Virus record (IMG/VR): IMGVR_UViG_3300007623_000010
Coordinates: 1 to 54,142 of that record
Origin: a virus
DNA: 54,142 nucleotides
Direction: 5' to 3' (one strand)
How positions within the stretch are numbered: position 1 is the first letter of the stretch; every line of letters starts with the position of its first letter. The notes beneath the pieces were generated by a model, which searched no databases, was not told the origin of the DNA, and saw nothing but the letters and a program-made list of their open reading frames with translations. Shown piece by piece: positions 1,964 to 48,073 of the stretch. Position numbers and translations under genes: made by a program.

Positions 1964-2499
1964 TAGGCGATTTTTTTAATAATGCTAGCGAACTATTCGA
2001 AGACGAACGTGAAATTTGCTCGCCTATGTTTGGGTTATCTTTTGATAATCCAGCAGCAGCATTAAAAGATGGCAACGACTATTATAATAATATGCTTAAT
2101 GAAACAATCGTCGAACGAAATAAAATTGAGCAATATTACTATGAGCGAATTAGAAATGGGTTAATGTCTAAATTAATTGAGATTAAATCATACTCTAATG
2201 TAAGTATTTTTGACACAAGACGATGGATTACAACGAATGATGACTGCATTAGTTCTGTACAAATTCTAATCAGAGATAAAATTTTCATAAATATATTTAT
2301 GAGAAGTTCGGATTTTGATGGAGCGCTTTCGTCAGATTTGAAGTTCTTTTCATCGTTGCCAACGTGGCTCATTAATCAGCTTATTAACATGAAAGATGAT
2401 TATAGATTTAACGAGGTTACTGATGAAAGCATAAATACGTTAAATAACATGGGTGTAGATATAAACATAATGTTTGGATCATTACACCGAACAAACTAA
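1960..2499 (+). CDS. Reduced thymidylate synthase/dCMP hydroxymethylase-like protein
   Basis: This 179-residue protein looks like a strongly diverged, shortened paralogue of gp42. CISSVQILIRDK (96-107) lines up with CTNTVQYLIRDK around the catalytic Cys of T4 gp42. RSSD (115-118) matches the nucleotide-binding R-S-x-D. Asp126 lies eight residues after Asp118, the spacing of the dCMP-specificity Asp in gp42. GSLH (173-176) matches the C-terminal signature, but the expected HxY is H-R-T. The folate-binding N-terminal half is barely recognisable. Its start overlaps the gp42 stop (ATGA). It may be a partner subunit of gp42, an enzyme with a different one-carbon donor or a decaying copy. I infer the family from motif spacing, not from a search. 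Confidence 0.6.
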   Translation: MIGDFFNNASELFEDEREICSPMFGLSFDNPAAALKDGNDYYNNMLNETIVERNKIEQYYYERIRNGLMSKLIEIKSYSNVSIFDTRRWITTNDDCISSVQILIRDKIFINIFMRSSDFDGALSSDLKFFSSLPTWLINQLINMKDDYRFNEVTDESINTLNNMGVDINIMFGSLHRTN

Positions 2500-2510
2500 A
2501 GGAAGGAAAA

Positions 2511-3734
2511 ATGATTGGATTGTTCTTAGGCAAAGGCCTTGAAGGTTGCGGAGTTACAAAATACGCAATCGAAATGATGACATATCTTAAACAAAGTAAT
2601 ATAGACTATAAGTTATTCATCGCTGACGACAAAAAACATTCACGCAATAAATCACATGATTTGAGTGAATTCAACGTTGGGTTCTATCGAGCAATCCCAC
2701 CAAAACGAAAAGTCGTACCCACATTCGACGATATGATTAATGAAGCGAAAGAATGCGACACGATCGTTATTCTATCGATGCCTGTTAAAGGTTATGACGA
2801 ACAAATTTTATCTGAAACTAAGCGTTTCTTTGACTCGATTAAAGATAAAAATGTCGTTGTAACTCATCATAATCATAGTTCATTATACATGAAAAAAGAG
2901 GTGTTGCTTGATGATGTATTGGAAATCACTAACACTATCTTTACTCATAGCGCAGTAAACCCTGTAAACAAATATATTATAAACAAATATCCAAACGCGA
3001 AAATTTTTAACTTGAATCCTTCAATGTTTATTGATTCATTTAAAAAGTTTTGGAAACCCGTAAGCGAAATTGATACAAGTGTCGTTAATTGGATCGGTAG
3101 AACTACACCATGGAAAGGATACGATTTAGCTGTTAATTTTCATACAGATCATTTGAAGGGTCTAGGATTTAGCACATCAATGCATGGTATGGACCGTGGT
3201 CCAGCATTTATTGGTTTTAAAGCACTTCACGCAGGAAAATTCATACTGCAAGACAAAGAAATCCAAGATAATAAAGACAATCTTTGTGAAATCTTTGGAC
3301 CGTACGTTCAAGACAAAATGCTCGATAAAATGAGTAAATCTGGTTTTGTATTACAATTGACAAAAATTAAACCAGAAGAATTACAGCAGTCTTATTCACT
3401 TGAATTTACACATATTGAGGCTTTGTCTATTGGCTCAATTCCTGTATTTAGAACTGAACATGGTAATGCAGTAATTAGTCGTAAAGATGATCGTCCAATT
3501 ATTGAACACGATACTGGAATCCTTTGGCTGAACGAAAATAATCAAGCAGAAGTAGCTGCAAAAATGAAAGAAATCGCTAATGATCCTGCATTATTTGAAG
3601 AGCATAGAACAAAAGCGTATAATTTCGCTAAAGAACAATGCGACAGTAAAGTAGTATTCGATGAATTCTTTAGAGTAGTTAAAGAAGAAAATTCAAACTT
3701 AAACAAAGCTGATACCATAGGAGATGAATGGTAA
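2511..3734 (+). CDS. agt: DNA alpha-glucosyltransferase
   Basis: The enzyme transfers glucose from UDP-glucose to hydroxymethylcytosine in DNA. It matches T4 Agt (400 aa) over its 407 residues: GKGLEGCGVTKYAIE near the N-terminus, NWIGRTTPWKGYD in the middle, SKSGFVLQLTK, and LEFTHIEALSIGSIPVF in the C-terminal nucleotide-sugar-binding half. It follows the gp42 pair with a good ribosome site (ggaaggaaaa). Its last codons contain the GGAG that can serve as ribosome site for the methyltransferase, and its stop overlaps that ATG. The C-terminus ends IGDEW, a tail shared with other DNA-acting proteins here. T4 Agt is reported to bind the gp45 clamp. Confidence 0.92.
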   Translation: MIGLFLGKGLEGCGVTKYAIEMMTYLKQSNIDYKLFIADDKKHSRNKSHDLSEFNVGFYRAIPPKRKVVPTFDDMINEAKECDTIVILSMPVKGYDEQILSETKRFFDSIKDKNVVVTHHNHSSLYMKKEVLLDDVLEITNTIFTHSAVNPVNKYIINKYPNAKIFNLNPSMFIDSFKKFWKPVSEIDTSVVNWIGRTTPWKGYDLAVNFHTDHLKGLGFSTSMHGMDRGPAFIGFKALHAGKFILQDKEIQDNKDNLCEIFGPYVQDKMLDKMSKSGFVLQLTKIKPEELQQSYSLEFTHIEALSIGSIPVFRTEHGNAVISRKDDRPIIEHDTGILWLNENNQAEVAAKMKEIANDPALFEEHRTKAYNFAKEQCDSKVVFDEFFRVVKEENSNLNKADTIGDEW

Positions 3735-4966
3735 TGAAGTGGATTACAATTATACCATTGGCAGGTGGATATCCAGTGGGTGCTCAGAAAGATCTAGGTA
3801 CTGTTCCAGAAGCAGTTATCTCTTGGCCTGCATTTAAAGCAAACGACTCACATTATCAAAACTATTTGAGAACTGAGTATAATTATCCTGAAGAAAATTT
3901 TGTTCTTTTAGATGAAGAAAATAACGTAACACAAGGTAGTACGAATTACCTTTCAAAGGACATTGATATTGTTATTAGCACACCGCCATGTGCCGGATTG
4001 TCAATGCTAAATACTGGTAATTCTAAGGATTCAGATTCCGGACGTGGCGCATGTGCTGCACAGAATGAATGGATGAAACGAGCGTCTGAATATGCATTAG
4101 ATGTCATTAAACCGAAGGTTCTAATATTTGAGAACGCGCCAGGTCTGTACACGTCAAAAGATGGCGAAGAAGTTATGGACTATTTGAATAGTGTTGCTGA
4201 AAAATTTGGTTATAGTACGTCAGCAATCATGACTAGCACTGATCTTCATGGTATTCCACAAATTCGTAAAAGAACATTCTTTTATTTTTGGAAGTCTGAA
4301 ACTTCGCCACTAATTGAATTTAGCTCAACCGATGAAGTTGCACCTTCAATTAAAGAATATCTTTCTAAGAAACCTCCTTTTAAACAAGACAACATTTATC
4401 CAAAAGAAGGTTTACAAAACGACCCATTTTTTCAGTTTGTTAAAACGAACTATGATGACTTTAGATCTGATATGAATGAATCACGTAAACGTACAATGAC
4501 TCATCATATTATTAAAAGCGGAAAATTTGATGAATTTCATGATTACATTCTTGAGAATCACTCCGGTACTCCTGCTGCAAAATTCGTTCAGCACGCTAAG
4601 AAAAAGTTAGCAGATAATAAGAACTTCTTCGACCCTTCACCTAATTACTTCGGTGATGATAGATTGAATGGAATTGTAGGGAAAACAGTTACTCATACAG
4701 TGCATCCAATTGAAGATCGTTTCTTGTCTTATGGTGAATTGCTGTATTTTATGGGTTATCCTAACACATTTGAGTTATTAGAACCTAAGAAAAATACGAA
4801 TCATATTGCTCAGAACGTCCCAGTCACCACAGGTGCATGGTCAGTGAAACAAGCTAGATTATTCATCGAAGGAAAACTGCAAGAAACTGATAAAAAATTC
4901 GTTAAGCAGAACAACATTAAGAAAACAACTGACACTTTAGTCGCAACACAAATGGAGGAGTGGTAA
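3734..4966 (+). CDS. Cytosine-C5 DNA methyltransferase
   Basis: All main C5-methyltransferase motifs are present in order: motif I (PLAGGYPVGA near residue 10), motif IV TPPCAGLS with catalytic Cys at about 86, motif VI FENAPG (about 132), motif VIII QIRKR (about 176), then a target-recognition region, motif IX (FLSYGELLYFMGYP) and motif X (QNVPVTTGAW). I prefer ATG 3734, which overlaps the agt stop as TAATG; an in-frame ATG lies at 3728. The combination is odd: in a phage that makes hydroxymethyl-dCMP and carries agt, C5 of cytosine should already be occupied. It could protect DNA made before hydroxymethyl-dCTP accumulates, methylate host DNA or have a changed reaction. The C-terminus ends QMEEW, like Agt and polymerase. 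Confidence 0.88.
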   Translation: MKWITIIPLAGGYPVGAQKDLGTVPEAVISWPAFKANDSHYQNYLRTEYNYPEENFVLLDEENNVTQGSTNYLSKDIDIVISTPPCAGLSMLNTGNSKDSDSGRGACAAQNEWMKRASEYALDVIKPKVLIFENAPGLYTSKDGEEVMDYLNSVAEKFGYSTSAIMTSTDLHGIPQIRKRTFFYFWKSETSPLIEFSSTDEVAPSIKEYLSKKPPFKQDNIYPKEGLQNDPFFQFVKTNYDDFRSDMNESRKRTMTHHIIKSGKFDEFHDYILENHSGTPAAKFVQHAKKKLADNKNFFDPSPNYFGDDRLNGIVGKTVTHTVHPIEDRFLSYGELLYFMGYPNTFELLEPKKNTNHIAQNVPVTTGAWSVKQARLFIEGKLQETDKKFVKQNNIKKTTDTLVATQMEEW

Positions 4967-4981
4967 CACTCTTCCTAATTT

Positions 4982-5003
4982 TTAAACAGTACTATGTTAT
5001 AAT
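4982..5003 (+). promoter_or_regulatory. TTAA-N12-TATAAT promoter upstream of mazG-like gene
   Basis: TTAAAC starts at 4982, exactly 16 bp before TATAAT (4998-5003), with an extended -10 TGT. It belongs to the recurrent middle-like class and lies about 30 bp upstream of the MazG-like gene. Confidence 0.6.
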
Positions 5004-5032
5004 ATCAATAAATTGAAAAAAGGAAAGAAAAG

Positions 5033-5461
5033 ATGATTAAAGAATTTGAAGACGTTCGTCAGTGGAAAAAAATTCGTGGTATCGGTGGAGCAGAAGACGC
5101 ACCTATGAAAGATCGACTGCAATCTCAATATCAGCGTGTTATGCAAGAATGTATTGAAATTCACGAAGCAATTGTTCTTGAAGATGATGAAGAATTTATG
5201 GACGCAATTGGCGATACGATTGTGACTCTTATTAATCTAGCTGATATCAAAGGCGTTAAAGCAGAAGATTGCTTAGCACAGGCATTTGGTGTAATTGATC
5301 TACGTAAAGGTTTGACACGTCCTACTGGTGACTTTGTCCGTTATGCTAAACTATCTTTTTCTGATCAAGAAATCTGTGATAATAAACAAGGCAATACTGC
5401 TTCAGAATATTTCCTAGAAGAAGATAAGAGCACACTTACCCCAGATTGTTTTAAGAAATAA
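5033..5461 (+). CDS. MazG-like nucleotide pyrophosphohydrolase
   Basis: This 142-residue all-alpha protein has the MazG/phosphoribosyl-ATP pyrophosphatase pattern: ECIEIHEAI (about 38-46) supplies the first acidic helix and EFMDAIGDTIVTLINLAD the second ExxD-type metal site. Such enzymes hydrolyse NTPs or dNTPs to monophosphates and pyrophosphate. It has a strong ribosome site (aaaggaaagaaaag) and its own promoter. Like the 973 gene it is a candidate for the dCTP/dUTP-hydrolysing role of T4 gp56, since it closes the modification block. Substrate unknown. Confidence 0.78.
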   Translation: MIKEFEDVRQWKKIRGIGGAEDAPMKDRLQSQYQRVMQECIEIHEAIVLEDDEEFMDAIGDTIVTLINLADIKGVKAEDCLAQAFGVIDLRKGLTRPTGDFVRYAKLSFSDQEICDNKQGNTASEYFLEEDKSTLTPDCFKK

Positions 5462-5472
5462 TGTAAAAAACC

Positions 5473-5502
5473 GTTTACACGCCGTTAATGTTTAGGTATA
5501 AT
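5473..5502 (+). promoter_or_regulatory. Early-type promoter for gene 44
   Basis: GTTTAC at 5473-5478 and TATAAT at 5497-5502, preceded by an A-rich stretch, match T4 early promoters. The gene 44 ATG follows about 29 bp after the -10 box. Confidence 0.7.
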
Positions 5503-5530
5503 AGAGATAGCAAATAACCAAAGGAAAGAT

Positions 5531-6463
5531 ATGAAAATCATCGATAATAGCAAATCAGTTTGGTACGAAAAATATAAGCCAGCTTGCATCGAAGATCTTG
5601 TTATTCCAAACGAGATCAAAACAAAGTTAACTAGATATGTACAAACACAGGATATACCTAACATCGGCTTGTTCTCGTCTAATCCTGGGACGGGTAAATC
5701 TAGCTCAGCACATGCCATTATCAAGGAAATCGGTGGTGAAGCTCTATGGATTAACGCATCTATGGAGAAAGGTATCGATGTTCTTCGTGGCAAAGTGCAG
5801 AAATTTGCCTCGCAGTCATCATTTGATGATAACATTAAAATTGTTGTTATGGACGAGTTTGATCACTTCTCTAAAGATGGTCAAGCAGCATTCCGTGGAT
5901 TCATTGACGAATTCAGTGTAAATTGTCGTTTTATTTTTACTGGCAATTATAAAGAAAAGATTATTCAACCTTTGCTTGATCGACTAGAAGTATATGATTT
6001 CAACTCATTCAGCAAAGAGGAAATGATCAAGCCTATATTCGAAAGACTAAAATGGATTTTAGAAAACGAAAATGTACAGTACGACCCTAAATCTCTTGTG
6101 CCAGTCATTAATACGTACTATCCGCGTATTCGCTCAATGGTTGGAGCACTACAAAAGTTTAGCAAAGACGGCGTTTTTACTGTATCTGAACATGAACTTG
6201 ACGATGTCAATGTATTCGATAAAGTGATGCAACTTGTTCATATGAATACATTTACTGATATGATTACAGAGGTAAATAAACTAAACGCTCCAGATAATAT
6301 GTATACGTACCTCTATACTAATGCTGCAAAATATTTTGCACCACAGGTATACCCACAAGTCGTATTGATTATTGCAAAATACCAGCATATGTCTGATTCA
6401 GTTCGTAATAAAAACTTGAATTTGGCTGCTTGTCTCACAGAATTAATTAAGTTAAAAGGATAG
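5531..6463 (+). CDS. 44: Sliding clamp loader large subunit
   Basis: This AAA+ ATPase loads the gp45 clamp together with gp62. The 310-residue protein (T4: 319) starts with the typical WYEKYKP region. Walker A is NPGTGKSS (51-58), Walker B VVMDEFDHF, sensor 1 FTGN, and the arginine-finger region follows (PLLDRLEVYDF). Its start has a consensus ribosome site (aaaggaaagat). In T4, 44 lies between 62 and 45; here 62 is about 5 kb downstream and 45 about 30 kb away, so the replisome operon has been broken up. Confidence 0.9.
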   Translation: MKIIDNSKSVWYEKYKPACIEDLVIPNEIKTKLTRYVQTQDIPNIGLFSSNPGTGKSSSAHAIIKEIGGEALWINASMEKGIDVLRGKVQKFASQSSFDDNIKIVVMDEFDHFSKDGQAAFRGFIDEFSVNCRFIFTGNYKEKIIQPLLDRLEVYDFNSFSKEEMIKPIFERLKWILENENVQYDPKSLVPVINTYYPRIRSMVGALQKFSKDGVFTVSEHELDDVNVFDKVMQLVHMNTFTDMITEVNKLNAPDNMYTYLYTNAAKYFAPQVYPQVVLIIAKYQHMSDSVRNKNLNLAACLTELIKLKG

Positions 6464-14949: not shown

Positions 14950-15681
14950 ATGGGCTCTTTCAAATCGTTTCTTGCAGAGAATGAAGATTTATTTCAACAG
15001 ATTACCGATATTTTAGATGAATTGTCTGAAGATGAAATTGACGAATTAGGATATGTGTTATATAGTGACTTCTTCACAGATACAGATGATGTAGAAGACG
15101 ACGAAGATATTCAAGAATTCAGTAAAGAAGACGTCATTGACATGATTAAGGAACTAGGTCCTGATATGTACGAAGCAATTCTTGAGATGCTCGAAGATGA
15201 TGATGAAGACGATGATGATGAAGACGACGATGATGAAGACGACGATGATGATGAAGACATGGATGAATCTTCTCCTCTAGAAATGATTAAAAAATTCCTA
15301 GGAAAGAAAATTTTCCATAAAAATTATCAAGCTGCTCTCGAAATGATGAAGAAAACTGGTAGATCAGCAGCTGATATTGCTCGTGTTTTTGATCATGTAG
15401 ATGCACGTGAACTTGACAAACTAGCGACTCAAATGAACGAAGCTGTTTCAAGATTCATGAAAGCTCGTAACATGAATAAGAAAAAACGAAAATTTATGTC
15501 AACGTCAAAGGCTGAACTACGTAGAACCAAAGCACAACGTCGCCGAGATGCTCGCAAAAATAAAGCAAAGGCTAGAAGATATTACAAAGCAAATAAAGCC
15601 AAAATCGCTAAATATCAGAAATCAAGAAGTGATGCTATAAAGAAAGGCAAACATAAAGTTAAGAAAAGACGCAACGCTTAA
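14950..15681 (+). CDS. Acidic-basic head-core-like protein with capsid tag
   Basis: The 243-residue protein begins MGSFKSFLAEN, with L-A-E cleavable by a gp21-type protease. It then has an acidic helical part, a run of about 25 Asp/Glu residues (81-105) and, after residue 165, a highly basic C-terminus rich in Lys/Arg (RRTKAQRRRDARKNKAK). T4 prohead core proteins gp67 and gp68 are acidic and cleaved by gp21, and T4 internal proteins are basic and DNA-binding; this chain combines both. Late expression is supported by TATAAATA at 14915. I infer an internal head or scaffold-core protein; homology is not shown. Confidence 0.6.
   Translation: MGSFKSFLAENEDLFQQITDILDELSEDEIDELGYVLYSDFFTDTDDVEDDEDIQEFSKEDVIDMIKELGPDMYEAILEMLEDDDEDDDDEDDDDEDDDDDEDMDESSPLEMIKKFLGKKIFHKNYQAALEMMKKTGRSAADIARVFDHVDARELDKLATQMNEAVSRFMKARNMNKKKRKFMSTSKAELRRTKAQRRRDARKNKAKARRYYKANKAKIAKYQKSRSDAIKKGKHKVKKRRNA
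15192..15267 (+). repeat. GAT/GAA/GAC triplet-repeat tract
   Basis: An imperfect run of GATGAT(GAT)GAAGAC units encodes the Asp/Glu tract. Such tracts expand and contract by slippage, so length variation between isolates is expected. Confidence 0.75.
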
Positions 15682-20224: not shown

Positions 20225-20232
20225 TATAAATA
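20225..20232 (+). promoter_or_regulatory. Late promoter for nucleotidyltransferase cassette
   Basis: TATAAATA lies 32 bp upstream of the ATG at 20264 and is followed by a tggagtaag ribosome site. Confidence 0.75.
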
Positions 20233-20263
20233 ATATAGAATAGAATATTTTGGAGTAAGATAC

Positions 20264-21454
20264 ATGGGTGGTAACGTAACCGCAAAGAATTGGACTACTG
20301 GTGAAGAAACTAGAGCTGAGAAAATCCAAGTAAAAGACATTGGACGCCAAGAGTTCATTAAAACTTTCGTTGAAATCTTTAAGAAAATGAATAAGGATTT
20401 TAAAGCGAAATACAAAAAGCCAATCTGGGTTAATGAAGATATTTTGACATCTGGTTTTGCGTTTAATGGCAGCACATCCTTTATAATGGACCCAACATTA
20501 TCTGACGAAGAAGTCATGAAATACAAGCCATCTGCCGGTGATTTAGACATTACTGTGCCAGAAGAAATCGGTACAGAATTATGGGAATTCTTAAATAAAT
20601 TAGAAGGTAAAGAAATTTTACCCGGTGCACGCTACATGGGTTCTAATCGTGGTAATAAAGATGCGATCGGAGACCAAATTAACGCTGTCATCATGGTAGA
20701 TTTCAAAAATGGACAACGTGCTTATGCACAAGTTGACTTTGAACTATTACCATTTGAAAATGATAAACCAACTGAATGGGCTAAATTTAGTCACTCTTCT
20801 TCGTTTGAAGATGCGAAAGCTGGCGTTAAAGCTGTTCACCATAAGTTCTTAATTTCTTCAATTGTCGGTGGAGCTTCAGTACGTGACGATATTGTTATTG
20901 CGACACCAGCATCTACACCTGAAAAAATTAGACTTAAGAAAATGGCACAGCTACCGCGTATGCTAAAATTCTCAGTTACACGTGGTATTCGTATTGCTTA
21001 TGAGCCAATGATTGGAGAAGACGGTAAAATTATAGAAATCGATGGAAAACAAGTTTATCGTGAAATTCCAACTAAGGATAGTACATACGAAACTGTTATT
21101 GCTGAAATCTATAAATTAGCCTTTAGACAATTAGTTGGGCATGAGGCTGACGTTAGAAAATTTGAATCTTTTGTTGGAGTTCTTGAATTGATGAAACAAT
21201 TCATGACTAAACAGGAAATTGATCGTACACATGATCGTTATTTACAGATGCTCTTTGAACCAACTAAAGGTAGAGCACAAGAATTAGAAGCTGGTAATCC
21301 ACAATTAGATTATCAAGTAAAATCAGCTGGTTATCAGCGATTCATAAAAGAATTAAAACTTAAAGATAAATCTCAGAAAATGGTCGAAGAATATTACAAA
21401 ACATACCGATTAAGAGAATCTTTTAGAGACTATTTAAATACATTAGGAGAATAA
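20264..21454 (+). CDS. Nucleotidyltransferase-fold protein (pol beta type)
   Basis: This 396-residue protein carries the pattern of the pol-beta/MNT superfamily: FNGSTSFIMDP (68-78, the GS motif), AGDLDITVP (91-99, two metal-binding Asp) and QVDFE (156-160, the third Asp). The spacing fits an active NTase that transfers a nucleotide to RNA, protein or a small molecule. The C-terminus ends ESFRDYLNTLGE, very like the N-terminal capsid tags elsewhere in the window. A late promoter and co-transcription with the ligase fusion suggest a virion-associated enzyme. The target is unknown. Confidence 0.65.
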   Translation: MGGNVTAKNWTTGEETRAEKIQVKDIGRQEFIKTFVEIFKKMNKDFKAKYKKPIWVNEDILTSGFAFNGSTSFIMDPTLSDEEVMKYKPSAGDLDITVPEEIGTELWEFLNKLEGKEILPGARYMGSNRGNKDAIGDQINAVIMVDFKNGQRAYAQVDFELLPFENDKPTEWAKFSHSSSFEDAKAGVKAVHHKFLISSIVGGASVRDDIVIATPASTPEKIRLKKMAQLPRMLKFSVTRGIRIAYEPMIGEDGKIIEIDGKQVYREIPTKDSTYETVIAEIYKLAFRQLVGHEADVRKFESFVGVLELMKQFMTKQEIDRTHDRYLQMLFEPTKGRAQELEAGNPQLDYQVKSAGYQRFIKELKLKDKSQKMVEEYYKTYRLRESFRDYLNTLGE

Positions 21455-21455
21455 A

Positions 21456-21677
21456 ATGGCATTCGGTAAAAAACTAACTGATGATAGATACTCTGTCGAG
21501 TTAAAAGAAACAGTACAAGAACGCATTGGTTACTTAGTAAACTTTGATGTTATGCTAACTACTAACGGTGATGAAATATTTTCATTCAAATCAAAAGATG
21601 TTCAGGCTGATCTAGCAGCTTTATCAGATACTAAATACACAGTAACTTTTGGTCAATCTACTATATTCGTAAAATAA
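21456..21677 (+). CDS. Small beta-rich protein
   Basis: The 73-residue protein starts one base after the NTase stop. It is beta-rich (IGYLVNFDVMLTTNGDEIFSF) with no recognised motif, and sits between the NTase and the ligase fusion in one late operon. It could be a small virion protein or a partner subunit. Confidence 0.6.
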   Translation: MAFGKKLTDDRYSVELKETVQERIGYLVNFDVMLTTNGDEIFSFKSKDVQADLAALSDTKYTVTFGQSTIFVK

Positions 21678-21686
21678 GGTTTTAAT

Positions 21687-23198
21687 ATGAACTTTGTCCA
21701 ATACATAAATGAGGGAAAAGAGCAGCTGGATATTAGTATCCTAGCTGCTGGTAAATACCTTACGAATCAAAAACGAATTGAAGAATTTCTTTCGTCTAAC
21801 GTCACAATTGAACATAAAACTGATGGTATTAAGCTAACTGTCATTAAGAAAGATAACAATGGTACACTAGACGATTACGTTTTTGCTTATAAAGGTCAGG
21901 TTCTTTATAGCGCAGAGTATGCTTACAATTCTAAAACTAAAGTTAAGAAAGAATCTATTGGTCCTTCACAGTTTGGATTAGTGTTTGATCATTTTAAAAA
22001 ACTTGGTAAGAATAGTATTCCAGTTGATACAGAATTATTCATTGAATTCTTAATGTCAAAACCGACACTATCATCTAACTATAACACTAAACATAAGATG
22101 GTTCTCATTGGTTACGCTAAAACCAAATGGCAAGAAAAGTTCGGTAGACTAATAAGTAATCCAGCGCCTATGCAAGAAGCTAAGAGAAACGATTACGCTA
22201 AACAAATTAAAATTGACATCCCTCAATTATTGTTTGTAGGCTCTATGGGTTCTCAAATAAGTTTTAGTGCAGGTATTAAAAACAATGCGCTGAAAGCAGA
22301 ATTTGAATCTAGCAAATTGTCAATGAACTGGGATAATGCTGAATTGTTATTGGATGACATTCGTCAATTATTCTTAAATGTTGAGTCTAAATATGGCGGC
22401 AAAGAAGAAGGTGTTGTAATTAAATACAACAACATGATTCTAAAATGGCAGCAAGAATATCAATTAGACCAAACTGCCAGAGCGGCTATTAAAGCTAAAT
22501 ATAGAGAAGACGACATTTTAGCAGAAAATCGTTATTGGGAGTACGTTAATAATCAAGCTTATCGTTTATCAAATTCTATTGTTGTTAAATCTAGAAAATT
22601 GAATGACGTTCTTGAAGAATTAGCTTTAGAACTTAAAAAACTAAAAATAGAAATTACTCATAGCAAAAAGACTGATGTCATGATTAAAGACGACATTCAG
22701 CTAAATACTAAAACCTTGCTTGTCAAGAAAATGCGTGGAAATAATAACGCATTGATTTTGGGCAAATTCAGAGTATTGACCAAAGAAGGTCATTATAAAT
22801 TGATTAAGCGTGCAGCGACATTATATGATAATGTTGTGGTTTGTATTGTTACTTCGAAAGATACTAAAGATACTAAAGATCTACGCGAAGAAATGATGAG
22901 AAAGGCATTCCCGAATGTTGAAATAATTCATCATAATTCTGGAAACATTAGCGGTATTTTGAATAAATCGCCAATAAATATTAATGCGGTTTATGCTGGC
23001 ACAGACAGGGTTGCTGCTTACAAAGAACAACTTAAGTATCGTCTTGGCGTTGAAGTTAGAGAGATGCCTCGTACTGATTCAGATATTAGCGCGAGTAAAG
23101 TCATCGATAATATTGCGAATCAAGAATTCTTTGAGAAAAATACTCCGAAAGAACTCCACTCAATGTATAATAAGATTAAAAAGGTATATGAAAAATGA
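21687..23198 (+). CDS. Capsid-tagged ligase fused to NMNAT-like nucleotidyltransferase
   Basis: This 503-residue protein starts MNFVQYINEG, a capsid-targeting-like tag with an I-N-E site. Residues about 40-260 carry covalent-nucleotidyltransferase ligase motifs: K44-T-D-G (motif I), ELFIEF (116-121), EGVVIK (241-246, motif IV) and MILKWQ (250-255, motif V), so an RNA or DNA end-joining or adenylating enzyme. Residues about 345-503 form an HxGH-type nucleotidylyltransferase: LGKFRVLTKEGHYKLI (358-373) and DISASKV (466-472), as in NMN adenylyltransferases. It is co-transcribed with a pol-beta NTase and a predicted nuclease. It could repair RNA or restore NAD after host attack; both roles are inference. 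Confidence 0.7.
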   Translation: MNFVQYINEGKEQLDISILAAGKYLTNQKRIEEFLSSNVTIEHKTDGIKLTVIKKDNNGTLDDYVFAYKGQVLYSAEYAYNSKTKVKKESIGPSQFGLVFDHFKKLGKNSIPVDTELFIEFLMSKPTLSSNYNTKHKMVLIGYAKTKWQEKFGRLISNPAPMQEAKRNDYAKQIKIDIPQLLFVGSMGSQISFSAGIKNNALKAEFESSKLSMNWDNAELLLDDIRQLFLNVESKYGGKEEGVVIKYNNMILKWQQEYQLDQTARAAIKAKYREDDILAENRYWEYVNNQAYRLSNSIVVKSRKLNDVLEELALELKKLKIEITHSKKTDVMIKDDIQLNTKTLLVKKMRGNNNALILGKFRVLTKEGHYKLIKRAATLYDNVVVCIVTSKDTKDTKDLREEMMRKAFPNVEIIHHNSGNISGILNKSPININAVYAGTDRVAAYKEQLKYRLGVEVREMPRTDSDISASKVIDNIANQEFFEKNTPKELHSMYNKIKKVYEK

Positions 23199-24091
23199 AA
23201 TTTAGAGATGTTTTAGAGGGAAAAGTCAACGTAAAAAGACTTAACGAAAGCAATGTCATGTCTATGGCGGAAAGTCAGGGCGCAGAAGCTACTGATGCGT
23301 TAAGAAAGCATGTTAATGAAAAACTAGGTATTAAAGCCGACATCCCAAAAATTAAAACAAATAATTTTAGTGCGTTCGCTAGCCAATACAATTCTTTGTA
23401 TAATCAGTTTAAGAAAGAGTTCATCTCTATTTTTAATTACGAAGTAAAGGGTATCGGTAGAGGCGAAATTTTGCTTTCTTATCTTGCTGATAACATTAGT
23501 ATTAATGGCGGTAAGGGTGATTACGACGTAAACTTTGGTAACACTAAAATGGAAGTTAAAGAAGTTGCAACAACTGCAACTTATTTTAAAAACTTTAGAC
23601 TAGGTGTACTTTCAAGAGAGTATTTGCAAAAAGCATATAATGATATTAAGTATCTTTACGGCGTTGCAAAATATCACATTCCAGAAATTAATACTGCTGC
23701 ATTTGAAGCAAAAGTCGCAAAAGGTGAGTTAACTACGTTAATTAAACCATTAAAAGACTTCGTTCCAACTAATCTAGGTGATGTTCAACGAATAGCTGTA
23801 GAAATTACAAAAACCGGCAAATTGTTTTTCGAAGGGCGTGAAGTAGGTAATATCAAGAATGCACAAGCAATTATAACTGATATTCTTGATAAAGAAACTC
23901 ACAAGTTCAAATCTTTTAATATGATAGAAACCGAATTAAGAAATAATCTTAATAAGAAAACAATGCCTTACATTTTCTTTGGTGATAATAAAGGTAAAGA
24001 AACGGCAATGCTGTTTTATAGAAAGGATTTAGGCGATCTTGAAATTGATACTATCACACAGGGTAATGTTAAGGTCAAAATTCCTAGATAA
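23195..24091 (+). CDS. Capsid-tagged PD-(D/E)XK-like nuclease candidate
   Basis: This 298-residue protein starts MKFRDVLEGK, a variant of the tag without a perfect (L/I)-x-E site. Residues 89-120 show GRGEILLSYLADN, then GDYDV and KMEVKEV, the E...D...ExK layout of PD-(D/E)XK nucleases. The rest is helical without recognised motifs. Its ATG overlaps the ligase stop (ATGA), so the two are made together. If the nuclease call is right, a late cassette combines cutting, nucleotide transfer and joining activities. Confidence 0.5.
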   Translation: MKFRDVLEGKVNVKRLNESNVMSMAESQGAEATDALRKHVNEKLGIKADIPKIKTNNFSAFASQYNSLYNQFKKEFISIFNYEVKGIGRGEILLSYLADNISINGGKGDYDVNFGNTKMEVKEVATTATYFKNFRLGVLSREYLQKAYNDIKYLYGVAKYHIPEINTAAFEAKVAKGELTTLIKPLKDFVPTNLGDVQRIAVEITKTGKLFFEGREVGNIKNAQAIITDILDKETHKFKSFNMIETELRNNLNKKTMPYIFFGDNKGKETAMLFYRKDLGDLEIDTITQGNVKVKIPR

Positions 24092-24147: not shown

Positions 24148-24336
24148 ATGAAGTTCAAGAAATATCTCAAAAGCATTTCTGAAGTAACAACATCCGGTGA
24201 TATTGCTACAGTAGACACAAAATTAGACATGACAAAAAGATACGAAAAGCATCATAATAAAGGCAAAAAGTGCAAGACTCACAAACAGTTTAATTGTGAA
24301 ATTTGCGAGAACGAAAAGTTCGAAAACCAAAAGTAA
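24148..24336 (+). CDS. Small Lys/His/Cys-rich protein with capsid tag
   Basis: This 62-residue protein starts MKFKKYLKSISEV (I-S-E site at 10-12). Its C-terminal third has HHNKGKKCKTHKQFNCEICENEK, with three Cys and three His that could bind zinc. It is very basic, as T4 internal proteins are. Its own promoter and repeat lie upstream. Confidence 0.55.
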   Translation: MKFKKYLKSISEVTTSGDIATVDTKLDMTKRYEKHHNKGKKCKTHKQFNCEICENEKFENQK

Positions 24337-24357: not shown

Positions 24358-24780
24358 ATGAGAGTAGGATTCACGGCCAGTTCGTTCGACCTTCTTCATG
24401 CAGGACATGTGGCAATGCTAGAAGAAAGTCGAAAGAATTGTGATTATTTAATTGTTGGTTTAAATGTCAATCCATTTAAAAACGGACGTTATCCTGTACA
24501 AGGTTTGTTTGAAAGGTTTAAACAACTCCAAGCAGTTAAATGGGTTGACGAAATCATTCCTTACAATGGTGAAAATGAGCTGATTGAAATTTTTAATACG
24601 ATACACATTGACGTTCGATTTATTGGATCAGACTACAAAAATTCACCATTCACCGGGCAAGAAATAAACGAAAGGAACCATACTGAGATCTTCTTTAATC
24701 GAAGAGATCATAATTTTAGTTCGAGTCGCTTAAAGAAACAAGTCGTCGACAATCAATTAGAAGTAAAGGAAGAAGGATAA
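24358..24780 (+). CDS. Cytidylyltransferase-like enzyme (TagD/RfaE type)
   Basis: This 140-residue protein has the HxGH motif in FDLLHAGHVAML (12-23), an RxxR-type central region and SSSRLKK (121-127), the ISSTxI-like motif. The length and layout match glycerol-3-phosphate cytidylyltransferase or RfaE-domain enzymes, which make CDP- or ADP-linked precursors. A role in surface or DNA modification precursors is possible. Ribosome site gaaggaaagaat. Confidence 0.8.
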   Translation: MRVGFTASSFDLLHAGHVAMLEESRKNCDYLIVGLNVNPFKNGRYPVQGLFERFKQLQAVKWVDEIIPYNGENELIEIFNTIHIDVRFIGSDYKNSPFTGQEINERNHTEIFFNRRDHNFSSSRLKKQVVDNQLEVKEEG

Positions 24781-29038: not shown

Positions 29039-30346
29039 ATGAAAATCACAGAATTTTTTAACAAGGATTACGTAGATCAGGCGTCATACGATAACCTTCG
29101 CAAGATCGCATCTCTCGTAGATGGCCAGAAAAACGCATCACGTAAGATCCTTTATACGGTTCTTGAGAAAAATATTAAAGATAAAATTAAGGTATCTCAG
29201 CTCGGCTCAAAAGTAGCTGAGTTTGCTGAATATCTGCACGGTAGTTTAGATGGTGTAATTGTAAATCTAGGTCAAGATTTCCAAGGCACTAACAATATAC
29301 CGTTGTTACAGAAGAAAGGTAACTTTGGTACTCGATTTGCACAAGAAGCTTCAGCGTCAAGGTACATTTATACTTATGGAACCTCTGAATTCTTTCAACT
29401 ATTTAAGAAAGAAGATTCTGCAGTGTTGAAGCATCAATTCTTCGAAGGGCAACAGATAGAGCCAATGTTCTATGTACCATCATTGCCTATCCTTTTAATT
29501 AATGGCAGTGAAGGTGTATCATCTGGTTTTGCTCAGAAGATTCTTCCACGTGATCCTGATAAAATTAAAGGGTATATTGTTAATAAACTTAATGGGAAGG
29601 CCTCACGTTACGATTTTACTCCGTTTTATAAAGGATTCAAAGGTGTAATTGAACAAGGCGAAACAAGTAATCAGTGGCTGATCAAAGGTGTCGTCCAGAG
29701 ACAAGGTATCAACCGCGTACTTATTACAGAGGTCCCTATTGGTTATGATCTAAAGGGATACATTAATGTTCTTGACGATCTAGAAGACAAGAAGATTATT
29801 CAAGGTTATAGGGACCTTTCTGAAGATGATAACTTTAAATTCGAAGTATCAATCGCTAGTAAAGAATTAAAAACGTGGTGTGACGAAACTCTATTAGCTA
29901 AACTTAAGCTCATTAAAAAAGTTTCAGAAAACTATACTGTTATTGACGAAAATAACAAAATTCAAGTACTAGACTGTGCAAAGGATATTATTGACCACTA
30001 CATCGATGTGAAACTTGAATATGTTGCTAAACGTAAGTCGCATCAGTGTGAAATCCTTGAAACAGAAATACGATTTGACTTTAGTAAGTATCTATTCATC
30101 AAAATGATTGTTGAAGATAAGCTTATTGTGAATAATCGAAAGAAAGTCGATATCGAGGCTGACTTAAATAAGGTTGAAAATATTCTTAGCAAAGATGGAT
30201 CGTATGATTATCTATTGAATATGAATATTTTATCATTGACAAAAGAACGATTGGCAAAACTTGAAAAGGATATTGCTGATAAGAAACAAACGTTGGATGA
30301 ATTGCTTAAGAAATCTATTGAAGAAATTTGGATAGATGAGTTATAA
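29039..30346 (+). CDS. 52: DNA topoisomerase II medium subunit
   Basis: This 435-residue GyrA/ParC-type DNA cleavage subunit (T4: 442) has LVDGQKNASRKILYT near the N-terminus, the GNFGTRF stretch and ASRYIYT with the catalytic Tyr at 109 (after Arg108), followed by the PMFYVPSLPILLINGSEGVSSGFA core. It works with gp39. The overlapping TATAAATA at its stop may drive the next gene. Confidence 0.93.
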   Translation: MKITEFFNKDYVDQASYDNLRKIASLVDGQKNASRKILYTVLEKNIKDKIKVSQLGSKVAEFAEYLHGSLDGVIVNLGQDFQGTNNIPLLQKKGNFGTRFAQEASASRYIYTYGTSEFFQLFKKEDSAVLKHQFFEGQQIEPMFYVPSLPILLINGSEGVSSGFAQKILPRDPDKIKGYIVNKLNGKASRYDFTPFYKGFKGVIEQGETSNQWLIKGVVQRQGINRVLITEVPIGYDLKGYINVLDDLEDKKIIQGYRDLSEDDNFKFEVSIASKELKTWCDETLLAKLKLIKKVSENYTVIDENNKIQVLDCAKDIIDHYIDVKLEYVAKRKSHQCEILETEIRFDFSKYLFIKMIVEDKLIVNNRKKVDIEADLNKVENILSKDGSYDYLLNMNILSLTKERLAKLEKDIADKKQTLDELLKKSIEEIWIDEL

Positions 30347-33157: not shown

Positions 33158-34114
33158 ATGAAAAACATCCTCGGAATTGACATTGGCTTTGGAGACGTAA
33201 AGGTGACTTTCGGTACATCCGATGGTAACATCTCAAAGCAATTCAAATTCACAAGCACAATCGGAATCACTAAACGCAATGAACACGTTTCTGATTCACG
33301 TATCTATGACTATAAGGAACATAGTTACTACGTTGGTGAAAACGCTCTACATCTTCCAAGCGAAAACTTGATTGATATAACTGACTATAAAAATCTAGAG
33401 TATTATGCTCCACTATTCTTGTTCCATGTAATTAAACAGACTGGTTTTAATCCAGATATTATTGTTTCTGGTCTCTCAAAGGCACAGATCGAAAATTCTG
33501 GTCACTTTAAAGAAGGTCTAATGAACTTCACAGTGAACGGCGAAAACTTTAAATACGACGAAGTTTATATTCTTCCACAAGGTGCTGGATCGAAGCTTAC
33601 CATTGACAAATTTGGTAATAACTTCCCGCATCCTCAACAAGAATTTACTGGTACGACATCTTTCGTAGGCTGTGATATTGGTTTTAATACACTTGATATG
33701 TTCTTAGTCACTGATGGTAAAACATCGCCAAACTTGTTTGAAGGCATTGAGCGTGAAGGTGTTATGAAAATTGCTACATTGGTTGCTAAGAAAGTCAAAG
33801 AGCTTCATGGTCGCCAAATCACTCTTCACGAAGCTAAAGAAATCATTGATACAGGTATCTATAAACTTCGAGGTCAAAAACACCCGTTTAAAGATTTTGT
33901 CGACGAAGTTAAAAAATCATATCTTAAAGAACTATTAGCATTGGTTGAAAACAAATACGGTAAAATTCTGGACAAATGTGATTTTATCTCGCTAAGTGGT
34001 GGTGGCTCAACTATCTTTAAATCAACTGACGACGGGTTCATTCGTGTTCCAAAAACTAAACATGAATATTACAATTCAATCGGGTTCAAACTCTTCGGTG
34101 ATACAAAAGCATGA
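33158..34114 (+). CDS. ParM/StbA-like actin-family ATPase
   Basis: This 318-residue protein has the actin-fold nucleotide motifs: GIDIGFGDVKV (phosphate 1), VGCDIGFNTLDM (phosphate 2) and ISLSGGGST (adenosine motif). Length and order match plasmid ParM and phage actin-like proteins, which form filaments that move DNA or organise replication. No ParR gene is obvious; a 39-codon ORF overlaps its stop. It has its own promoter and ribosome site (aaaggtaaaac). Confidence 0.8.
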   Translation: MKNILGIDIGFGDVKVTFGTSDGNISKQFKFTSTIGITKRNEHVSDSRIYDYKEHSYYVGENALHLPSENLIDITDYKNLEYYAPLFLFHVIKQTGFNPDIIVSGLSKAQIENSGHFKEGLMNFTVNGENFKYDEVYILPQGAGSKLTIDKFGNNFPHPQQEFTGTTSFVGCDIGFNTLDMFLVTDGKTSPNLFEGIEREGVMKIATLVAKKVKELHGRQITLHEAKEIIDTGIYKLRGQKHPFKDFVDEVKKSYLKELLALVENKYGKILDKCDFISLSGGGSTIFKSTDDGFIRVPKTKHEYYNSIGFKLFGDTKA

Positions 34115-36474: not shown

Positions 36475-36711
36475 ATGAATTTCAGAAATTTCTTATCAGA
36501 AAACAAAAATAAAGAAAAAGCCGTAGGCAATGTTGCTAAAAGCTTAGGGTGGAAAGAAGTTGATGGTGGTTATGAAGACAAAAACGGAAACCGTTTGATT
36601 TACGTTGACCCTGGTAAATTTGCAGTATCAAGTAAATCAGGACAGACTATCATCCCGCCTAAACCATTTATGACGTTTGACGATATTTCTAAAGCAATAA
36701 AAGATTTATAA
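36475..36711 (+). CDS. Small capsid-tagged protein
   Basis: This 78-residue protein begins MNFRNFLSEN (L-S-E site at 7-9, aligned with the T4 tag). The body has GYEDKNGNRLIYVDPGKFAVSSKSG, a small beta fold. Late promoter upstream. A candidate injected internal protein. Its stop overlaps another TATAAATA. Confidence 0.6.
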   Translation: MNFRNFLSENKNKEKAVGNVAKSLGWKEVDGGYEDKNGNRLIYVDPGKFAVSSKSGQTIIPPKPFMTFDDISKAIKDL

Positions 36712-42633: not shown

Positions 42634-43017
42634 ATGAAATTTAAAACATTCTTGGAAGAACAACGATTGGTCGAACTTGAAGAAGCTACAATGGCTAACA
42701 TCAAGAAAGAAGTTCAAGCTGAACTCGACAAAATGAGCGATGCTGAACTGAAAGCTGCAGTTAAGAAACAAAAGACAACTAAGCCGATTGATCACAACCG
42801 TGGTATGATCGCAATGGATGTTATGAACGCTGAAATGAAAAAGCGTGGTCTGAAAGAAGAAGTTGAAGAACAATCAGATAAGCAAAAAGCATATCAAGAA
42901 TTCTTCGAAAAAACTCTTAAAAAGTACGGCGTAAAATCTCCTTCAGAGCTATCAGACGAAGATAAGAAAAAATTCTTTGATGAAGTTGATGCTGGTTGGA
43001 ACGCTGACGACGAATAA
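42634..43017 (+). CDS. Capsid-tagged helical protein
   Basis: This 127-residue protein starts MKFKTFLEEQ (L-E-E site at 7-9). The rest is helical and highly charged (KKEVQAELDKMSDAELKAAVKKQK, later KAYQEFFEKTLKKYG), with an acidic C-terminus. It resembles T4-type internal head proteins in character only. A strong terminator follows. Confidence 0.6.
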   Translation: MKFKTFLEEQRLVELEEATMANIKKEVQAELDKMSDAELKAAVKKQKTTKPIDHNRGMIAMDVMNAEMKKRGLKEEVEEQSDKQKAYQEFFEKTLKKYGVKSPSELSDEDKKKFFDEVDAGWNADDE

Positions 43018-47859: not shown

Positions 47860-47882
47860 AAAAGGGGAATTATTCCCCTTTT
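47860..47882. terminator. Bidirectional terminator between convergent genes
   Basis: AAAAGGGGAA and TTCCCCTTTT around a 3-nt loop: A-rich on one side and T-rich on the other, so it works in both directions for uvsW and the minus-strand gene. Confidence 0.85.
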
Positions 47883-48073
47883 GTTCTTTCTATATATTCT
47901 TTAAACGTTTCGTTCAAACCGAGCATCTTCTTCAAAATTCCCGTTATATATGCGTAATCTTCTTCACGTCCAGATTCTTTAGCGATTTTCTTTGCTTTAT
48001 CCCATAATTTTTCTACTTCAGCTTCTGACTTCCCAGTTTTATCAGCGAAAGACTTCACTATATTCGACGGCAT
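47870..48073 (-). CDS. Small conserved late protein with C-terminal tag
   Basis: This 67-residue minus-strand protein begins MPSNIVKSFADKTGKSEAEVEKLWDKAKKI, a helical module I recall in other T4-like phages. Its C-terminus NETFKEYIERTKGE resembles the N-terminal capsid tags of other genes here, and the NTase has the same at its C-terminus. A late promoter lies 21 bp upstream. Probably a virion or head protein. Confidence 0.65.
   Translation of the reverse strand: MPSNIVKSFADKTGKSEAEVEKLWDKAKKIAKESGREEDYAYITGILKKMLGLNETFKEYIERTKGE

Follow-up and report, generated by a model that had tools for sequence, protein, structure and literature searches.

A candidate head-packaged cassette of nucleic-acid end-processing enzymes in a T4-like virus

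What does a virus do with a late gene cassette in which a nucleotidyltransferase, a ligase-like fusion protein and a candidate nuclease stand side by side and bear what look like head-targeting signals? The question is raised by IMG/VR record IMGVR_UViG_3300007623_000010, whose 54,142 nucleotides (54 kb, hereafter the window) carry T4-like genes for a tail-sheath stabiliser, a topoisomerase, SSB, a replicative helicase and a gp23-like head protein. We suggest that the cassette is a head-packaged kit for processing nucleic-acid ends, most likely those of RNA, that would be injected with the genome, and we give this reading an even chance of being right. RNA end repair is favored because the cassette or its relatives combine a fold like that of T4 RNA ligase 2 (Rnl2), a kinase resembling RNA-repair kinases and a Pol-beta-type nucleotidyltransferase (NTase).

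The AlphaFold2 model of the fusion protein, built with 20 aligned members, has a mean pLDDT of 89.8 and a pTM of 0.84, with disorder confined to residues 1-16, which include an N-terminal tag. In Foldseek comparisons with the PDB the top match was T4 Rnl2 (E 1.7e-7, prob 1.00), and the C-terminal half matched PPATs (E 1.5e-6) and NadR (3e-4), with nicotinate-nucleotide adenylyltransferases also among the fold matches; no DNA ligase occurred among the 50 PDB matches listed. Profile comparison with the PDB likewise joined the C-terminal domain to a PPAT (E 3.4e-6). In a viral protein library the fusion found one nearly full-length match, a 484-amino-acid protein with 51% identity, together with an IBB_35 protein, 'cytidyltransferase-like' proteins of ~590-620 amino acids (one from S-PM2) and many Rnl2 proteins. 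The motifs of the Rnl2 family are present as K44-T-D-G (KxDG), E120 (motif III), E241-G-V-V-I-K (motif IV) and K253 (motif V); E120, E241 and G242 are conserved in all members of the fusion family, and K44, D46, G47 and K253 in nearly all. Pfam RNA_ligase (PF09414) left the window fusion unmatched and reached E 1.2e-4, under its curated cut-off, in relative L077. For the four cassette proteins Pfam returned a single weak CTP_transf_like match and nothing else, and PADLOC gave no convincing result. As modelled, the fusion has a T4 Rnl2-like domain first and a PPAT/NMNAT-superfamily (HIGH) domain after it; the first-pass annotation had left its ligase and HIGH-superfamily folds to be judged by structure prediction, and both came through that test.

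The annotation had further called the second domain NMNAT-like with an HxGH motif. The superfamily fold holds, with PPATs closer than NMNATs, but the window sequence actually reads T-K-E-G-H, Thr replacing the first His. Moreover, the Arg of the ISxTxxR motif is absent from the window (ISASKVI) and from 16 of 19 aligned relatives, being kept only in L014, L029 and L030. Since both residues are altered or mostly gone, 'NMNAT' is too specific, and 'HIGH-superfamily nucleotidyltransferase' is the safe name. These observations also bear on the idea that the domain adenylylates NMN and restores NAD+ depleted by host defences. The fold, the presence of NadR and nicotinate-nucleotide adenylyltransferases among the matches, and the term NMNAT homologues given to the cyanophage counterparts (PMC10665884) would all suit NAD salvage. 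However, the best matches are PPATs, the arginine is missing, and the tight linkage is with nucleic-acid enzymes, so that we consider salvage very improbable; the NAD processing offered in the annotation looks weak on the same grounds.

The NTase matches phrog_19290 (E 3.5e-88). Its G69-S70, D93, D95 and D158, which make up the Pol-beta pattern of GS...DxD plus a third catalytic Asp, are invariant in 18 members, and by these motifs the protein is a Pol-beta-type nucleotidyltransferase. Pfam gave zero matches in the 18 members, and their alignment gave no usable match to PDB profiles. The coupling of an RNA ligase to a Pol-beta partner has been predicted before, with RlaP as the example (PMC7824862), and phage pairs of RlaP and RNA ligase resemble the cassette in this respect. 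RlaP itself was rejected as the identity of the NTase: Pfam PF10127 was unmatched in the 18 NTases and in five whole phage genomes. The window NTase also differs from RlaP in starting GGN and in being apparently head-targeted.

The two enzymes travel together. GenBank has 22 phages, of Vibrio, Campylobacter and Xanthomonas, with a relative of the fusion, and IMG/VR adds 28 loci; a search of bacterial genomes found no relative. The NTase is present in the same 22 GenBank phages. A ligase or HIGH gene lies at most 6 kb from the NTase in 33 of the 36 entries with enough downstream sequence, a few of these entries being fragments of one gene or second copies. The ligase does not adjoin the NTase in L051, L075 and the Campylobacter phages (L034), the last having both genes at a distance from each other. 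Xanthomonas phage X1 gave a first impression of lacking the ligase; this was overturned by ligase motifs (SWKLDG, FEGVVI) in a 286-amino-acid neighbour, from which the ligase and HIGH enzyme of X1 look like separate adjacent genes. Between the window and relative L007, dN/dS is 0.11 for the fusion and 0.13 for the NTase, and the differences fall mostly at third codon positions. Both genes are therefore maintained, under purifying selection.

Several relatives add a third activity. A P-loop kinase, often tagged, occurs in L006, L013, L014, L022, L023, L025, L026, L047 and L056, and the best PDB matches of the L006 protein are 4gp7 and 4jst (E 0.005-0.009), which we take to be the kinase domain of Clostridium thermocellum Pnkp, an RNA-repair kinase. 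L077 joins a kinase, its sub-threshold RNA_ligase region and a CTP_transf_like domain (over cut-off) in one chain, and L082 encodes a kinase fusion whose other part is a second NTase-like region (GSAG...GDIDVIV), recognized by motif and a weak profile match. Such a set would fit DNA ends equally well: NTase, ligase, kinase and nuclease might repair restriction cuts or trim the ends of the injected genome, like a small end-joining system, and delivery along with the DNA would then be sensible. The structural neighbours of the ligase are RNA ligases, however, the kinase resembles an RNA-repair enzyme, and in phage CP220 a further, distinct gene is predicted to encode a DNA ligase. We judge a DNA-end kit unlikely.

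Several observations support delivery in the head. First, the cassette appears to be expressed late. The T4-type late promoter motif TATAAATA occurs 17 times in the window against 8.0 +/- 2.5 expected, a number reached in 0 of 100 shuffles, and after the copy ahead of the NTase gene the next on the plus strand comes only at 30342, in agreement with the single late promoter that had been annotated. The four genes are also where they had been placed, overlapping or nearly so, with spacings of +1 nt and +9 nt and then a 4-nt overlap.

Secondly, the proteins are tagged. T4 head proteins bear targeting sequences of 10-20 residues that are cut off by gp21 (PMC5694885). In the window, tags of the [LI]-x-E-ended type open the fusion (MNFVQYINE|G, the bar marking the expected cut) and the 298-amino-acid protein (MKFRDVLE|G), and the NTase ends in RE|SFRDYLNTLGE, just as the annotation had described. 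In 9 of 9 independent NTase lineages with an N-terminal extension, the added stretch ends in [LIM]-x-E right before the conserved GGN (LTE, LLE, MFE, LNE, LQE, MNE, LNE, ILE and INE), and in the CP220 NTase GGN is preceded by MKLSELMFILE; the remaining NTases start MGGN or have a possible start Met preceding GGN. Removal of Met or cleavage by a protease would therefore give the same mature end. Among ligase-fusion genes, 21 of 34 have [LIM]xE[AGST] within the first 30 residues, compared with 1 of 34 when an internal stretch is taken instead and with 13% among other genes. Where the HIGH enzyme and a 398-amino-acid neighbour taken as the ligase are separate (L072, L073 and L078), each has a tag. 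C-terminal tags follow E[ST] in many NTases. In L022 and L023 the NTase ends in LIREAL or MIREAI and other proteins of the lineage start MIREAI, so that the C-terminal tag looks like a relocated N-terminal element; we know of no prior description of a C-terminal capsid tag of this type. Judged by their sequences, the [LIM]-x-E junctions are T4 gp21-type cleavage signatures and the capsid tags are real.

Similar starts are found elsewhere in the window in genes for candidate head-packaged proteins, at 157-603 (MGFKDYLNE), 575-874 (MTFKEFLEE, from an internal ATG), 14950-15681 (MGSFKSFLAE), 36475-36711 (MNFRNFLSE) and 42634-43017 (MKFKTFLEE), and a 67-amino-acid protein at 47870-48073 on the minus strand, ending in LNE|TFKEYIERTKGE, gives a second example of the tag at a C-terminus. 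In L047 a tagged protein (4796-5593; MKFVDFLNE) with HELNH, without a Pfam match, is a possible head-carried metallopeptidase. Many small proteins of L022-L028 start with the tag variant M[IL]REAIxxIxE, which suggests that these phages package a large protein set.

Evidence from virions comes from cyanophages. A search with one of the proteins neighbouring the NTase-ligase pair (slot proteins, see below) led to S-ShM2, where it lies beside DUF6267, with ligase-like motifs (KWDG...GDFIGF...HEGFVI), and a 'cytitidyltransferase' tagged MKKFSTFISE|A. DUF6267 has relatives in 469 phage records, and the cytidyltransferase query matched 534, some via the HIGH domain only; some of these pairs are fused, since phrog_455 spans both. 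The cyanophage and window HIGH domains are homologous by profile comparison (E 6.7e-7), whereas DUF6267 and the window ligase gave no significant match, KxDG alone being aligned. Sullivan et al. (2010) listed the cytidyltransferase, T4-GC190, as a cyanophage core protein and detected it in S-SM1 virions (PMC3037559); the S-SM1 protein starts MKKFSAFLNE|A and is thus tagged. A cytidylyltransferase was also detected in S-CREM2 virions, although the authors caution on carry-over (PMC10665884). The cyanophage set (T4-GC71, T4-GC190) shares with the cassette a HIGH domain that comes after ligase-like motifs, in the same or an adjacent protein, a capsid tag and a nuclease-like neighbour, and its presence in virions is reported. 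It differs in that no GGN-family NTase was seen alongside and in a ligase part without significant profile similarity. Together with the late promoter, tags and folds, this mass spectrometry of relatives agrees with the annotated view of a nucleic-acid kit that probably enters the host along with the genome.

The last cassette gene is less easily placed. The 298-amino-acid protein had been labelled PD-(D/E)XK-like, and the motif stands: D111 and E120-x-K122, in the D...ExK arrangement, are invariant in five members of the family, Vibrio included. The AlphaFold2 model is of low confidence (mean pLDDT 53.7) and the family alignment had no usable match among PDB profiles; on its motif the protein is a candidate nuclease. 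With tblastn no GenBank phage relative was found, and profile or phmmer searches gave just a weak relative in Vibrio; the group is common to the window, L023, L024, L027 and Vibrio phages. Many loci have an extra slot protein of this kind beside the NTase-ligase pair, in six or seven mutually unmatched groups, most with D-h-x-h then [SE]-x-K and several tagged, although the pattern was picked from the same sequences and its frequency is no test. An alignment of the WNPAD-type slot proteins gave no usable match to PDB profiles. Because the fold of the 298-amino-acid protein is not confirmed, 'exchangeable nuclease' is a hypothesis.

Variety of this kind beside a constant pair would fit an arms race, in which an exchangeable nuclease-like effector attacks host or rival DNA while the NTase and ligase protect, activate or modify phage nucleic acid. 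Yet some loci are without a slot-type neighbour, pairs of this type are not known to make any protective modification, and the window has another means by which its DNA could be protected, a DNA alpha-glucosyltransferase (2511-3734; Pfam AGT, E 1.6e-56), because of which the phage DNA is probably glucosylated. With the nuclease fold itself in doubt, we regard an attack system as decidedly unlikely.

According to our favored reading of RNA end repair, the late-made proteins would enter the prohead via T4-type capsid-targeting sequences, lose their tags to the prohead protease, which would cut at [LIM]-x-E|[AGST], and be injected together with the DNA. In the host, 5'-phosphate and 3'-OH ends would be sealed by the Rnl2-like domain, the NTase would put back missing nucleotides, the PNK-like kinase of relatives would heal 5'-OH ends, and the HIGH domain would pass a nucleotide on, either to an end or to a small molecule. 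RNA cut by defences, tRNA first, could thus be mended before the phage's own genes are expressed; the RNA-cleaving defences suggested in the annotation are a possible target. Domain make-up, linkage, tags and selection are established for the cassette, and presence in virions is reported for the HIGH protein of relatives; we infer prohead cleavage, injection, an RNA substrate, tRNA repair and the part played by the nuclease. The reading should be taken with some caution, since several points weigh against it. The window has no kinase, its NTase is not RlaP by Pfam, the nuclease has no evident place in repair, and a ligase fold by itself cannot separate RNA from DNA substrates. Vibrio and Campylobacter fusions are without an obvious tag, the literature searched held no virion reports of the NTase, ligase or nuclease, and the enzymatic activities are predictions from sequences and models.

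Comparison with known systems places the cassette among familiar parts. Like the T4 internal head proteins and Alt, processed by gp21, it combines late expression with a short tag at the N-terminus, cleavable at x-E, and one would expect delivery along with the DNA; unlike them, its cargo is a repair-like enzyme set and a tag is also C-terminal. It shares with the T4 Rnl2 family the nucleotidyltransferase fold and motifs I, III, IV and V, but its ligase is fused to a HIGH domain rather than stand-alone and is missed by Pfam RNA_ligase. The kinase-plus-ligase logic of bacterial Pnkp-Hen1 and T4 Pnkp-Rnl1 recurs in relatives (the kinase-ligase-HIGH chain of L077), whereas the window lacks the kinase, and no phosphatase or methyltransferase was seen in the cassette. 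The parts are of known kinds; their packaged combination was not found in the literature searched.

The features are collected in Table 1. Directly after the cassette, at 24358-24780, lies an untagged stand-alone CTP_transf_like protein (Pfam E 9e-14, phrog_7878). An actin-like protein is encoded at 33158-34114 (ALP_N E 5e-10, MreB-like_C E 2e-10). In L006, a phage contig, two flagellar-type proteins resembling hook-associated proteins lie just before the NTase (2251-4173; Flg_bbr_C E 2e-7, Flagellin_N E 1e-4, the latter below cut-off).

Table 1. Features of the cassette and its immediate surroundings, in window coordinates
Feature	Position	Strand	Description
Late promoter motif TATAAATA	20225..20232	+	T4-type, 31 nt upstream of NTase start codon
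NTase gene	20264..21454	+	predicted Pol-beta-type nucleotidyltransferase, 396 aa, starts MGGN, phrog_19290
C-terminal capsid tag of NTase	21419..21451	+	SFRDYLNTLGE after RE|
73-aa protein gene	21456..21677	+	no relative detected outside the window
Fusion gene	21687..23198	+	503 aa, RNA ligase 2-like + HIGH-superfamily nucleotidyltransferase (modelled), phrog_27149
N-terminal capsid tag of fusion	21687..21713	+	MNFVQYINE|G
Ligase-like domain and following helices	21729..22586	+	~residues 15-300; K44-T-D-G, E120, E241-G, K253
HIGH-superfamily domain	22743..23195	+	residues 353-503; GKFRVLTKEGH, GTDR, ISASKVI
298-aa protein gene	23195..24091	+	candidate PD-(D/E)XK nuclease, N-terminal tag MKFRDVLE|G
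62-aa protein	24148..24336	+	tag-like start MKFKKYLKS; kept near the cassette in several relatives

In conclusion, we tentatively propose, at somewhat less than even confidence, an unrecognised class of virion-delivered RNA repair, in which a ligase-HIGH enzyme, a Pol-beta NTase and a kinase, with an exchangeable restriction-like nuclease and tags at either end, would at the very start of infection counter defences that cleave nucleic acids, in many T4-like phages, marine cyanophages included. Phage RNA repair is usually pictured as made after infection starts. A head-carried kit would, if true, already be at work when no phage gene has yet been transcribed, the stage at which defences threaten injected DNA and host tRNAs the most. 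It would also point to a possible function of the cyanophage core 'cytitidyltransferase' T4-GC190, which is found in virions, and a tag with the [LIM]xE|[AGST] junction, at either protein end, would offer a simple sequence rule by which T4-like phages could be searched for injected proteins. With related sets present in hundreds of phages, many viruses may inject a ready-made nucleic-acid repair kit along with their DNA.

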